NCBI RefSeq assembly: GCF_023051145.1
Contig: NZ_JALKFS010000005.1
Span: 1,302,001-1,366,000, forward strand
DNA length: 64,000 nucleotides
Origin: Williamsia sp. DF01-3
GTDB taxonomy: Bacteria > Actinomycetota > Actinomycetes > Mycobacteriales > Mycobacteriaceae
Reading direction: 5' to 3'
The position numbers were made by a program, and so were the translations under genes. Below, in pieces: positions 36,046-47,545 of the stretch (positions are counted from its first letter, which is position 1; every line of letters starts with the position of its first letter). The notes under the pieces are model-generated. The model had not been told where the DNA came from, did no database searches, and was given only the letters and a program-made list of their open reading frames with translations.

Positions 36046-37494
36046 GTGTCTGAAACAAAATCGCCGACCGAGAAACCGCGGGTCTCGAACGTCCTGGCCG
36101 GTCGCTATGCGTCGGCAGATCTGGTGCGGTTGTGGTCCGCCGATCACAAGATCGTCCTGGAGCGGCAACTGTGGGTCGCAGTCCTCAAAGCGCAGCAGGA
36201 ACTCGGCGTCGACGTACCCGACGAGGCCATCGCCGACTACGAACGTATGCTCGATCAGATCGACCTGGCCTCCATCGCCGACCGTGAACGGGTCACCCGC
36301 CACGACGTGAAGGCGCGCATCGAGGAGTTCAACGCCCTCGCCGGCCACGAGCACATCCACAAGGGGATGACCAGCCGCGACCTCACCGAGAACGTCGAGC
36401 AATTGCAGATCCTGCGGTCCCTCGAGCACGTACACGCACACGGTGTCGCCACCGCGGCACGCTTGGCCGACCGGGCCGCCCAGTACTCCACGCTGGTGAT
36501 GGCCGGTCGCAGCCACAACGTCGCGGCGCAAGCCACCACCCTCGGCAAGCGATTCGCATCGGCGGCCGACGAACTGCTCATCGCGCTCACCCGCCTTCGC
36601 GAGCTGATCGACCGCTATCCGCTGCGCGGTATCAAGGGCCCGATGGGCACCAGCCAGGACATGCTCGACCTGCTCGACGGAGACGTCGACAAACTGTCCC
36701 AGCTGGAGTCGAAGGTGGCCGACCACCTCGGGTTCTCGAAGTCGTTGACGTCGGTGGGTCAGGTGTACCCGCGATCGCTCGACCACGACGTGGTCTCGGC
36801 GCTGGTCCAGGTGGCTGCCGGACCCTCGTCGTTGGCGCACACCATCCGCCTGATGGCAGGCCATGAGCTGGTCACCGAAGGTTTCCAGGCAGGGCAGGTC
36901 GGCAGTTCGGCGATGCCGCACAAGATGAACACCCGCAGCTGCGAGCGGGTGAACGGGCTCGCAGTGGTGCTCCGCGGCTACGGATCGATGGCTGCGGAAC
37001 TTGCCGGCGCGCAGTGGAACGAGGGCGACGTGTTCTGCTCGGTCGTGCGCCGCGTGGCATTGCCCGACGCCTTCTTCGCCATCGACGGACTGCTCGAGAC
37101 GTTCCTGACGGTGCTCGCCGAGTTCGGTGCCTACCCAGCGGTGATCGCAAAAGAACTCGACCGGTACCTGCCGTTCTTGGCGACCACCAAGGTCCTGATC
37201 GCTTCGGTTCGTGCAGGCGTCGGTCGCGAGGTCGCGCACGAGGCGATCAAGGAGAATGCCGTCGCCGTGGCCCTCGCCATGCGCGAAGACGGTCGCGATC
37301 CCGACCTGCTGGACCGACTGGCCGCCGACGACAGGATCCCACTCGACCGCGCCGGGCTCGACGACGCGCTGGCCGACAAATCGGCATTCATCGGCGCAGC
37401 AGAGCACCAGGTGGCCGACGTCGTCGCTCAGGTGGGCAAACTCGTCGATCAATATCCCGACGCCGCCGGTTATGCGCCGGCACCTATTCTCTGA
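36046..37494 (+). CDS. purB: Adenylosuccinate lyase (PurB)
   Basis: A 482-aa fumarase/aspartase superfamily enzyme acting twice in purine synthesis (SAICAR and adenylosuccinate cleavage). It shows MTSRDLTENVEQLQ, the GKRFASAADELL and RGIKGPMGTSQDML segments and the superfamily signature SSAMPHKMNTRSCERV. GTG start. Length fits the mycobacterial form. A repeat array begins 27 bp after its stop. Confidence 0.96.
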   Translation: MSETKSPTEKPRVSNVLAGRYASADLVRLWSADHKIVLERQLWVAVLKAQQELGVDVPDEAIADYERMLDQIDLASIADRERVTRHDVKARIEEFNALAGHEHIHKGMTSRDLTENVEQLQILRSLEHVHAHGVATAARLADRAAQYSTLVMAGRSHNVAAQATTLGKRFASAADELLIALTRLRELIDRYPLRGIKGPMGTSQDMLDLLDGDVDKLSQLESKVADHLGFSKSLTSVGQVYPRSLDHDVVSALVQVAAGPSSLAHTIRLMAGHELVTEGFQAGQVGSSAMPHKMNTRSCERVNGLAVVLRGYGSMAAELAGAQWNEGDVFCSVVRRVALPDAFFAIDGLLETFLTVLAEFGAYPAVIAKELDRYLPFLATTKVLIASVRAGVGREVAHEAIKENAVAVALAMREDGRDPDLLDRLAADDRIPLDRAGLDDALADKSAFIGAAEHQVADVVAQVGKLVDQYPDAAGYAPAPIL

Positions 37495-37520
37495 CCGTTT
37501 CGCCTGCCGGTTGTGCAAAC

Positions 37521-37578
37521 CCTCCGACTTTGTCGACTTCCTCCGGTTGCAACCGGAGTTTCTGGCTGGAGTCGGAGG
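37521..37578 (+). repeat. 58-bp nested-palindrome repeat, copy 1
   Basis: Outer arms CCTCCGACT and AGTCGGAGG enclose a perfect inner palindrome CTCCGGTTGCAACCGGAG. It lies 27 bp after purB. Copy 2 follows with a 91-bp period. In one frame it reads PSDFVDFLRLQPEFLAGVGG, but no start or ribosome site precedes it, so coding is unlikely. Confidence 0.85.
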
Positions 37579-37611
37579 CTTTGGCGGGCCCGGGTTGCCG
37601 GTTAGGCAGAC

Positions 37612-37669
37612 CCTCCGACTTCGTGGAGTTCCTCCGGTTGCAACCGGAGTTTCTGGCTGGAGTCGGAGG
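37612..37669 (+). repeat. 58-bp nested-palindrome repeat, copy 2
   Basis: Same outer arms and identical inner 18-bp palindrome as copy 1; only a few bases differ between the left arm and the centre. The preceding bases (TTGCCGGTTAGGCAGAC) resemble those before copy 1, so the repeated unit is about 91 bp. Confidence 0.85.
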
Positions 37670-37705
37670 TCCTGCTGTGGGGCGTGAGCGGCGGGTCACG
37701 CAGAC

Positions 37706-37752
37706 CCTCCGGTTTCGTGGACTTCCTCCGGTCGCAGTCGGAGTTCCTGTCC
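37706..37752 (+). repeat. Degenerate third copy of the nested-palindrome repeat
   Basis: Starts CCTCCGGTTTCGTGGACTT, with a centre CTCCGGTCGCAGTCGGAG whose symmetry is partly lost and no right outer arm. It is 94 bp after copy 2 and is preceded by a related CACGCAGAC. Confidence 0.65.
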
Positions 37753-37764
37753 GCCTCGCTGGCA

Positions 37765-38057
37765 CTAATCGGAGTCTGCCTTGTCGGCGTGCCCGAGGTT
37801 CCAGTCCGGCACCGCGATGTCGCGCACGAGTTTCTTCAGAGTGACGACGTCGGGAAACCCGTTGTCGCGCTTGCGCTCCCATACCAGTTGTCCGTCGACC
37901 TCGATGGTGAACACGCCGCCGGTACCTGGCACCAGGGTCACCGACCCCAGTTCGGTACCGAAGGTGTTCAGCAACCCGTTGCCATCCACGACGCCCGAAG
38001 TACCCAGTTGCACTGAGTGCAATAAGTGATGGTGACCGATGCAGCCGATGTGCTCAC
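37765..38057 (-). pseudogene. Rdx/SelW-family thioredoxin-like protein, frameshifted
   Basis: GTG 38057 begins MSTSAASVTITYCTQCNWVL with the CxxC of the Rdx (SelT/SelW/SelH) family, followed by RASWMAT, then the frame ends. The next frame continues LLNTFGTELGSVTLVPGTGG, FTIEVDGQLVWERKRDNGFP and DIAVPDWNLGHADK, the typical rest. One added base in the CCC at 37975-37977 gives a 97-aa protein, the normal size. Such proteins are small redox carriers of uncertain partner. Confidence 0.78.
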
Positions 38058-46180: not shown

Positions 46181-47452
46181 ATGGTGACCACCTCGGCCGA
46201 CGCGGCCGGACTGGGTAGGTTCGTCGACGCATCGCCATCGCCGTTCCATGTGTGTGAATCGGTGGCCAAGGCGCTCGAGGCGGCAGGTTTTCGCGAGCTG
46301 AGCGAAGAGCATCAGTGGCCGAGCAAACCCGGGCGGCACTACGTGATGCGCGGTGGCTCGATCGTCGCCTGGGACAGCAGCGGACCAGGACGCAGTTTCC
46401 GGATTGTCGGGGGTCATACCGACAGTCCCAACCTCCGGGTGAAGCAGAACCCCGGTCTCCACTCGGCCGGCCTGTCGATGGTGGGCTTGGAGAAGTACGG
46501 TGGCGCACTGCTCAATTCATGGCTCGACCGCGATCTGGGCATATCCGGCCGGCTGGCGATCCGGGACTCGAAAGGGCTCCGGCGCCGACTGATCAAGATC
46601 GACGAACCTGTTCTTCGCGTCCCGCAGCTCGCGATACATCTCTCCGAGGACCGGGCCGGTGTGACGCTCGATCCGCAGCGGCACGTCAACGGCATCTGGT
46701 CGGTGGGTGAGAGCGGTCCCGGCTTCATGGAATGGATTGCCGCACAAGCAGAGGTGAGCGTGGATCAGCTCCTCGGTTGGGAGTTGATGACCCACGACCT
46801 GGCGCCGAGCCGAGTGGTCGGGGTCAATGACGACCTGCTGAGCGCACCCCGCCTGGACAACCAGGGAACCTGCTACGCCGGTACCCGCGCGCTCGTCGAT
46901 GTTGTCGAAGGTGGCGTCGGACAGTACATTCCGGTGCTCGCCTTGTTCGACCACGAAGAGGTCGGTAGTGGTTCGGATCGGGGCGCCGCGTCGGAATTGC
47001 TGCCCACGGTGCTCGAGCGAATCGTGTTGGCGGGCGGTGGTTCTCGTGAGGACTATCTGCGGTCGATGTCGATGAGTGCGTGCGCCTCCGGTGATATGGC
47101 CCATGCCACCCATCCCAATTACCCCGAGCGCCACGAACCGGCACATCAGATCTCCATCAACGGAGGACCGGTGCTGAAGGTCAATCAAAATCTGCGCTAC
47201 GCGAGCGATGCCGAAGGCGAAGCGCTGTTCGCGGTCGCGGCGGAGCAGGCCGGGGTGCCACTGCAGCGCTACGTGCACCGCGCGGACCTGCCATGCGGGT
47301 CCACTATCGGCCCGATCACCGCCACCCGAACCGGTTTGACCACCGTTGATGTCGGTGCCCCGCAGCTCGCGATGCACAGCGCCCGCGAGCTGATGGGAAC
47401 GGCCGACGTGGGAATGTACTCGGCTGTGCTGGCTGCGTTCCTGAACCCCTGA
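46181..47452 (+). CDS. pepC: M18 family aminopeptidase
   Basis: A 423-aa dinuclear zinc aminopeptidase. Ligands are seen in [13 protein letters not shown] (His, Asp), [12 protein letters not shown] (Asp), [13 protein letters not shown] (Glu, Glu) and the C-terminal [10 protein letters not shown] (His). ATG is 8 bp after the purQ stop. It is the Rv0800 position. Removes N-terminal acidic or neutral residues from peptides in the cytoplasm. Confidence 0.93.
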
Positions 47453-47470
47453 CGCCCCGACCGGCCAGAA

Positions 47471-47528
47471 CCTCCGACTCCGGCCAGATCCTCCGGTTGC
47501 AGTCGGAGGATGAGGTCGAAGTCGGAGG
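47471..47528 (-). repeat. 58-bp nested-palindrome repeat, copy 4 (inverted)
   Basis: Read on the minus strand it matches copies 1 and 2 after purB: outer arms CCTCCGACT/AGTCGGAGG are exact and length is the same 58 bp; the inner palindrome has two changes (CTCCGGTTGCAGTCGGAG on the plus strand). It fills the gap between the convergent pepC and VOC genes. Confidence 0.8.
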
Positions 47529-47545
47529 GTGTGTGACCGGCGAGG

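Follow-up and report, generated by a model that had tools for sequence, protein, structure and literature searches.

MITEs are short non-autonomous inverted repeats that are spread through a genome. REP sequences usually occur in over 100 copies per genome and belong to a RAYT gene that has one REP on each side, evolves together with the REPs and is linked to their abundance (PMC2817692), and the accessible text of a second source assigns to the REP superfamilies a GTAG or CGTC tag at one end (PMC3733652). Type IV AbiEi antitoxins bind inverted repeats in their own promoters, which for Rv2827c are four repeats in two pairs, according to the portion of the literature at hand (PMC7319586). Here we describe a family of nested palindromes in Williamsia sp. 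DF01-3 (genome G000) that resembles the REP, BIME and REPIN systems and their RAYT genes, as far as these are covered by the accessible parts of PMC2817692 and PMC3116915, in that many extragenic palindromes occur in doublets or arrays and a gene is bracketed by cognate palindromes.

The window that was analysed, a stretch of 64,000 nt, contains purB (36046..37494, + strand; Pfam Lyase_1 and ADSL_C) and, convergent to it, a gene of the Rdx family (37765..38022, - strand; Pfam Rdx). In the gap between the two, a nested palindrome occurs as two full copies followed by a degenerate one, at spacings of 91 and 94 bp. Aligned in register, the stretches 37505-37578 and 37596-37669 are 92% identical, and the third (37690-37763) shows 66% identity. 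The full copies have folding energies of -32.0 and -33.7 kcal/mol, with z-scores of -4.68 and -4.43, and for each of them 0 of 200 shuffled sequences folded as well. Alignment and folding thus confirm the tandem nested palindrome with a period of 91-94 bp that the preliminary description had placed downstream of purB, and the outer 9-bp arms (CCTCCGACT/AGTCGGAGG) and perfect inner 18-bp palindrome (CTCCGGTTGCAACCGGAG) are both as described there. Delimited by the half-site plan given below and assigned to neither strand, copy 1 with its four half-sites occupies 37516..37583 (profile match 68.6 bits; inner palindrome 37541-37558, outer arms 37521-37529 and 37570-37578) and copy 2 occupies 37607..37674 (66.9 bits; inner palindrome 37632-37649), while copy 3 (37701..37753, 38.1 bits) is truncated and degenerate and has lost its last half-site. 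A further full copy, additional to those noted earlier and likewise without strand, lies at 47466..47533 (70.0 bits) between two convergent genes, the upstream one being an open frame at 46181..47452 on the + strand.

A DNA search of the organism's own genome with the purB repeat matched many further places, the best of them outside the window at E 6e-23, so that the repeat is not a chance occurrence. A scan of the matched loci for the half-site plan yielded 28 rows, two of which read neighbouring copies at an offset and were removed, leaving 26 full copies that, together with the truncated third purB copy, are found at 16 sites. The absence of further genomic copies, which would have spoken against the preliminary description, thus does not hold. 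All copies are located on the 5.25-Mb contig, as judged from a profile search of the genome. The profile was built from the 26 copies, which it recovers by construction, and its only addition at E <= 1e-5 was the truncated third purB copy; scoring covered 150 of the 4637 candidates from a first look, so that weak copies may have escaped.

With few departures, full copies follow the plan CAnnn-CCTCCGRYT-n9-TCCTCCGRYTGCARYCGGAGGA-n9-ARYCGGAGG-nnnTG, i.e., four half-sites CTCCGRYT in the order ->-><-<- with steps of 19, 10 and 19 bp. Among 137 distinct copies from the genus and its relatives the half-site columns are mostly near-invariant. Pairing shows either no excess or a deficit at the spacer columns 15/54, 17-20 with 49-52, 22/47 and 23/46, is in clear excess at the half-site-edge pairs 6/63, 11/58 and 25/44 and in slight excess at 1/68, 4/65, 5/64 and 13/56, measured against shuffles that take no account of relatedness among the 137 copies. 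Since most of the variable spacer columns lack a pairing excess, conservation falls mainly on the half-sites and not on a continuous RNA stem. The consensus ends (CAnAn and GTnTGG) lack the terminal tetranucleotide tag of the REP superfamilies. When the 26 copies are oriented by replication arm, the non-Watson-Crick cells of the stem comprise 38 G.T, 6 A.C and 13 others, the spacers consist to 66% of G+T, and the fold of the leading strand is the lower one in 23 of 26 copies. This polarity could stem from a leading-strand mutational bias or from insertion as a single strand.

Fourteen of the 16 sites in G000 are convergent gaps as delimited by a simple ORF caller, two are co-directional and none is divergent, compared with 35 convergent, 88 co-directional and 41 divergent among 164 background gaps of at least 60 bp (from 300 kb of sampled G000 stretches and the window); at one locus (L014) both arrays fall within a single convergent gap. 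The replication origin is placed near 0.40 Mb by parS and GC skew. All 16 sites are at most 1.58 Mb away from it, on a half circle of 2.63 Mb, with a mean distance of 0.84 vs 1.31 Mb expected (KS p 0.008, a post hoc value for sites that share ancestry).

A pattern scan of named genomes returned 42 stretches, every one of them in Williamsia or in a record under the title Kitasatospora arboriphila NRRL B-24581. This record (NZ_JNYV; L072, L079) carries the Williamsia element and matches the same-genus genome G008, and its title looks wrong. Within the genus the element is present in 8 of 9 genomes and absent from G004; across the family, 16 of 301 genomes from 3 of 31 genera match at E <= 1e-5 under strict filters. 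Loci read in the two other genera have the same plan, built from a GCTCCGGTT-like monomer with other spacers. In genus g6 (L057:1100-1160) a similar array was seen by eye directly after the apparent 3' end of a tRNA gene. Plasmid and phage records gave no match to the element and the exact pattern was not found in IMG/VR viral contigs, and a phage or plasmid origin was rejected on these results. None of 12 other element-bearing loci, all outside the window, matched an Rfam family at the gathering threshold, and a permissive Rfam scan of the purB gap produced a single match far below gathering. A literature search, mostly at the level of titles and with little coverage of subscription papers, retrieved no description of the palindrome or of a palindrome-bracketed AbiEi-like gene.

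A gene of 306 aa (G000:C5:1973824-1974741) is bracketed by four copies, among them the one with the highest score; it is located between arrays at C5:1973.6k and 1974.8k, and its neighbours (L011) read by eye as a reductase and a proline dehydrogenase; no toxin gene was seen adjacent to it. Copies bracket the gene in G005, G006 and G008 as well. In G007 a high-scoring copy follows a homologue with 67% identity, and the preceding copy contains a 2-base insertion and was missed by the weight matrix. The G007 unit (L186 vs L182) occupies the same slot between reductase and proline dehydrogenase, with the whole bracketed unit inverted. All 24 homologues in the alignment give matches to AbiEi profiles, and at E <= 0.1 Pfam assigns AbiEi_4 to 14 and AbiEi_1 to 6 of the 24 members. 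Further towards the C-terminus the alignment, read by eye, has the invariant residues E195, D228, E238-x-D240-G and K244-Y, a set (E195/D228/E238/D240/K244) that we take to be a Vsr-like PD-(D/E)XK site. By this residue pattern, the C-terminal part is probably a PD-(D/E)XK nuclease. Pfam nuclease models matched none of the 24 members, one distant paralogue alone had a sub-threshold match to DUF559, and no relative was found among solved structures, which gave just two chance matches. Homologues at E <= 1e-20 are widespread (207 of 301 genomes of the family, 25 of 31 genera), and one of those in G003 is without the N-terminal part and has kept both palindromes.

We also noticed a TCCACA motif (often TTATCCACAG or TGTCCACAG) within 220 bp upstream of AbiEi-like genes (L182-L251). 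First spotted by eye, it was counted afterwards in these loci themselves and is present in 45 of 69 upstream regions, as opposed to a mean of 5.6 and a maximum of 13 after shuffling and to none of 34 control loci drawn from four genes. The motif is presumably DnaA-box-like, and its position before the gene may point to a coupling to replication.

Within the genus, the abundance of the palindrome may follow the gene. Matches on both strands number 54 in G000, 91 in G005, 72 in G006 and 76 in G008, which possess the gene, and 32 in G007 with its 67% homologue, vs 29 in G002, 16 in G001, 10 in G003 and none in G004, where no cognate gene was seen (homologues of G001-G003 were read in part). Copy number is thus highest where the cognate gene is present, a comparison within one genus. 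No gene bracketed by the CTCCG palindrome was encountered among the homologues read in G001 (4 of 6), G002 (3 of 6) and G003 (5 of 7), and these three genomes nonetheless carry a few copies.

Homologous genes in other genera are also enclosed according to this plan, by palindromes of different sequence. In most of the best loci a palindrome stands before and after the gene and its sequence is particular to each unit: CTCCGGTT in the G000 group, CAAACCCAC in G004, GCACACCGT in G002 and G003, CGCGGCACCT in G099, GCGCTCCACTT in G113, and others elsewhere. For a quantitative test, 70 loci were assembled from the 30 best matches and 40 that were hand-picked from the matches listed before their flanks were read, 68 of which had enough flank; they include orthologues in shared slots and are neither random nor independent. 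Strict alignment found 56 of the 68 homologue loci bracketed (scores 16-63; 12 unbracketed), with positives in 5 of the 6 genera sampled, and matched control windows further out at the same loci were positive in 0 of 66 cases (maximum score 13). A looser test gave 27/29, 35/39 and 61/69 loci and, at the same margin, 0/34 for orthologues of four control genes; its scoring can run into coding DNA and the strict numbers are preferred. In 38 of 56 blocks the best direct repeat was one of 7 nt or more at exactly 19 bp, and shuffled blocks had a repeat of this length at any offset from 10 to 45 in a mean of 12.1 of 56 (maximum 18). Palindrome similarity is correlated with protein similarity (Mantel r 0.66, reached by none of 1000 permutations; computed on 62 loci from the looser test, orthologues included), and block similarity drops below about 60-80% protein identity. 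A high-scoring CTCCG element was observed among the 70 loci in G000, G005, G006, G008 and G007 only, with G148 weak. Orthologous units often reside in the same slot across species. The bracketing units are mostly inherited in place, which fits a RAYT-like residence without proving mobility.

We inspected orthologous slots by eye in up to nine genomes of the genus. Behind purB, arrays are present in four genomes and the five without this family have other repeats there instead. One of these, a second and unrelated hairpin repeat of ~120 bp (GCTCGCTCCGCTCGCTTTGTCGG...), was seen in the purB slot of the other clade (L115-L118) and in the symporter slot (L141, L143-L148), and it is inverted in G003 relative to its relatives. 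In G004 (L119), the ~250 bp after purB contain arrays of the unrelated half-site GAGCGTGCC, in which, again, two direct and two inverted copies ~20 bp apart can be made out. In Williamsia muralis NBRC 105860 (L112) the convergent Rdx gene after purB is replaced by a co-directional gene, ArsR-like by eye. The pntB slot has the element in four genomes, an unrelated perfect hairpin in the family-free G004 and altered neighbours in the rest. At two paralogous symporter slots a hairpin that looks terminator-like by eye adjoins the gene in all loci compared (9 of 9 and 5 of 5); these hairpins are alike in most genomes and differ in G005 and also, for the paralogous slot, in G001 and G007, and arrays beyond them exist only in G000, G005, G006 and G008. 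Between a NUDIX and an alcohol dehydrogenase gene, G000 has 91 bp with one element, and G005, G006 and G008 are alike, vs a mere 8-10 bp between the stop codons, with neither element nor hairpin, in the sister species G003 and G007; neighbours differ in G004, and two genomes have no homologue at threshold.

Seen from the relatives, 36 of 47 element clusters in named genomes could be mapped on both flanks to G000 stretches. Thirty of these are occupied in G000 too, often with another copy number (e.g., 6 vs 2), a shared fraction that is biased upward because the compared G000 stretches centre on its own copies, and six, at two sites, are empty of the element in G000. About 10-18 bp remain at the first of the two element-free sites; at the other, the asd slot, the place of the element is taken by another gene of the same broad type that has a nested palindrome of its own. 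The latter (L023:4540-5600) is an AbiEi-like gene with a sub-threshold DUF559 match and the palindrome CCTGAGAACTGTCG..., and three relatives have the CTCCGG element there. No clear target-site duplication was recognised by eye at empty sites. Terminator-like hairpins are thus present regardless of the element, and two sister species have one slot empty; we conclude that the element was added and does not have its origin in the purB 3' end. The origin as a stabiliser of the purB mRNA 3' end that the preliminary description had considered is therefore not borne out: the element is missing from the purB slot in 5 of 9 genus genomes, and the terminator-like hairpins of the two symporter slots occur with or without it.

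A more general version of that explanation would hold that the palindromes are bidirectional terminators or mRNA 3'-end stabilisers kept for convergent genes. The copies do lie close after stop codons, mostly in convergent gaps, and form strong folds, a few half-site-edge column pairs covary, and the hairpin in the pntB slot of G004 would agree with a demand for some such structure. However, we consider this reading unlikely, and as an origin it was rejected on the element-independent hairpins, the empty NUDIX slot, the lack of a T-tract (0-3 T in the 8 nt past the right end of the 26 copies in leading-strand orientation) and the little column pairing, with most variable spacer columns showing no excess. 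It also leaves the equal half-sites at a 19-bp step and the bracketed gene unexplained. A local effect of the element on mRNA ends is possible.

Alternatively, the palindromes might be operators through which the AbiEi-type domain represses its own gene, the scattered copies forming a regulon or titration sites. The promoter binding of AbiEi proteins and the four paired repeats of Rv2827c mentioned above speak for such a role, as does the upstream palindrome, which in the listed loci is no more than about 150 bp away from the start codon. But a matching palindrome also follows the gene, often 0-20 bp from its stop codon, and solitary copies occur at the 3' ends of genes rather than at promoters (none of the 16 sites is a divergent gap), so that we regard this account, too, as improbable. 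Even less credible to us are sites of chromosome organisation, of a gyrase or nucleoid type, in transcription-poor gaps of the origin-proximal half. The location of 16 out of 16 sites within 1.58 Mb of the origin and the strand polarity by replication arm (spacer G+T and leading-strand fold) point in this direction, but the family is absent from G004 and scarce in G003, many sites are common by descent and their positions not independent, and ordinary mutational bias of replication yields strand polarity as well.

We favour instead, with a probability of roughly 70%, that the element behind purB is a non-autonomous, solitary member of a REP-like family that relies on the bracketed 306-aa gene for its spread. 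The association of palindrome and gene is an observation, from which we infer binding, cleavage and mobilisation. The master unit would be the 306-aa gene bracketed on both sides by the same palindrome. By analogy with AbiEi proteins and Rv2827c, its AbiEi-type N-terminal part may read the half-sites, and the probable nuclease at the C-terminus could cut at or near the palindrome, perhaps when this is exposed as a single-strand hairpin at the replication fork. Repair would then copy the palindrome to other extragenic places, mostly between convergent genes, where insertions are presumably tolerated, and arrays such as that of purB may grow and shrink by tandem duplication of palindrome plus spacer.

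Of the readings offered by the preliminary description, the small non-autonomous mobile element and the REP-like site both gain support in kind from the many extragenic copies, the differences in copy number and presence between close genomes, the empty slot, and a partner gene bracketed by the same palindrome. This partner is not a transposase of the known REP type: the Y1/HUH transposase of REP systems (PF01797) was detected in 0 of 9 genus genomes by a search that matches 5 of 14 control genomes including E. coli. RAYT membership was rejected on this absence. REP/RAYT is hence the closest working model, in which palindrome and gene likewise co-vary and abundance follows the gene, as it may do here within one genus, and the Williamsia family is not a member of it because no Y1/HUH enzyme was found in the genus. 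In contrast to the Y1/HUH transposase of RAYT, the Williamsia partner combines an AbiEi N-terminal domain with a probable PD-(D/E)XK end; each arm of the palindrome holds two equal half-sites 19 bp apart, unlike in REP, and the 26 full copies fall short of the more than 100 given as usual in the accessible text (PMC2817692). With type IV AbiEi antitoxins such as Rv2827c it shares the match to the AbiEi N-terminal profile and the inverted repeats that AbiEi is described to read in the part of the source at hand (PMC7319586), but it has an extra C-terminal domain, its repeats are on both sides of the gene and scattered through the genome, and no toxin gene was seen by eye beside the Williamsia locus. 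The short, dispersed and non-autonomous inverted repeats are also reminiscent of MITEs, but no transposase of a known family with matching ends and no clear target duplication were found.

Whether this extends to the whole family we judge to be evenly balanced: selfish or domesticated palindromes would be spread by an AbiEi-fused PD-(D/E)XK nuclease without HUH transposases, each with its own half-site in the same geometry and co-diversifying with its protein. To our knowledge, REP-like repeats with a dedicated partner gene have so far been explained by one enzyme class, the HUH tyrosine transposases. The present units look like an undescribed system that works like REP repeats. If a second gene family, unrelated to the first, does follow this bracket plan, the way of life would have evolved twice. 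Such a system would also give a role to a very common and poorly characterised actinobacterial gene family, and its members would provide a natural series of protein and half-site pairs in fixed geometry from which DNA recognition may be decoded.
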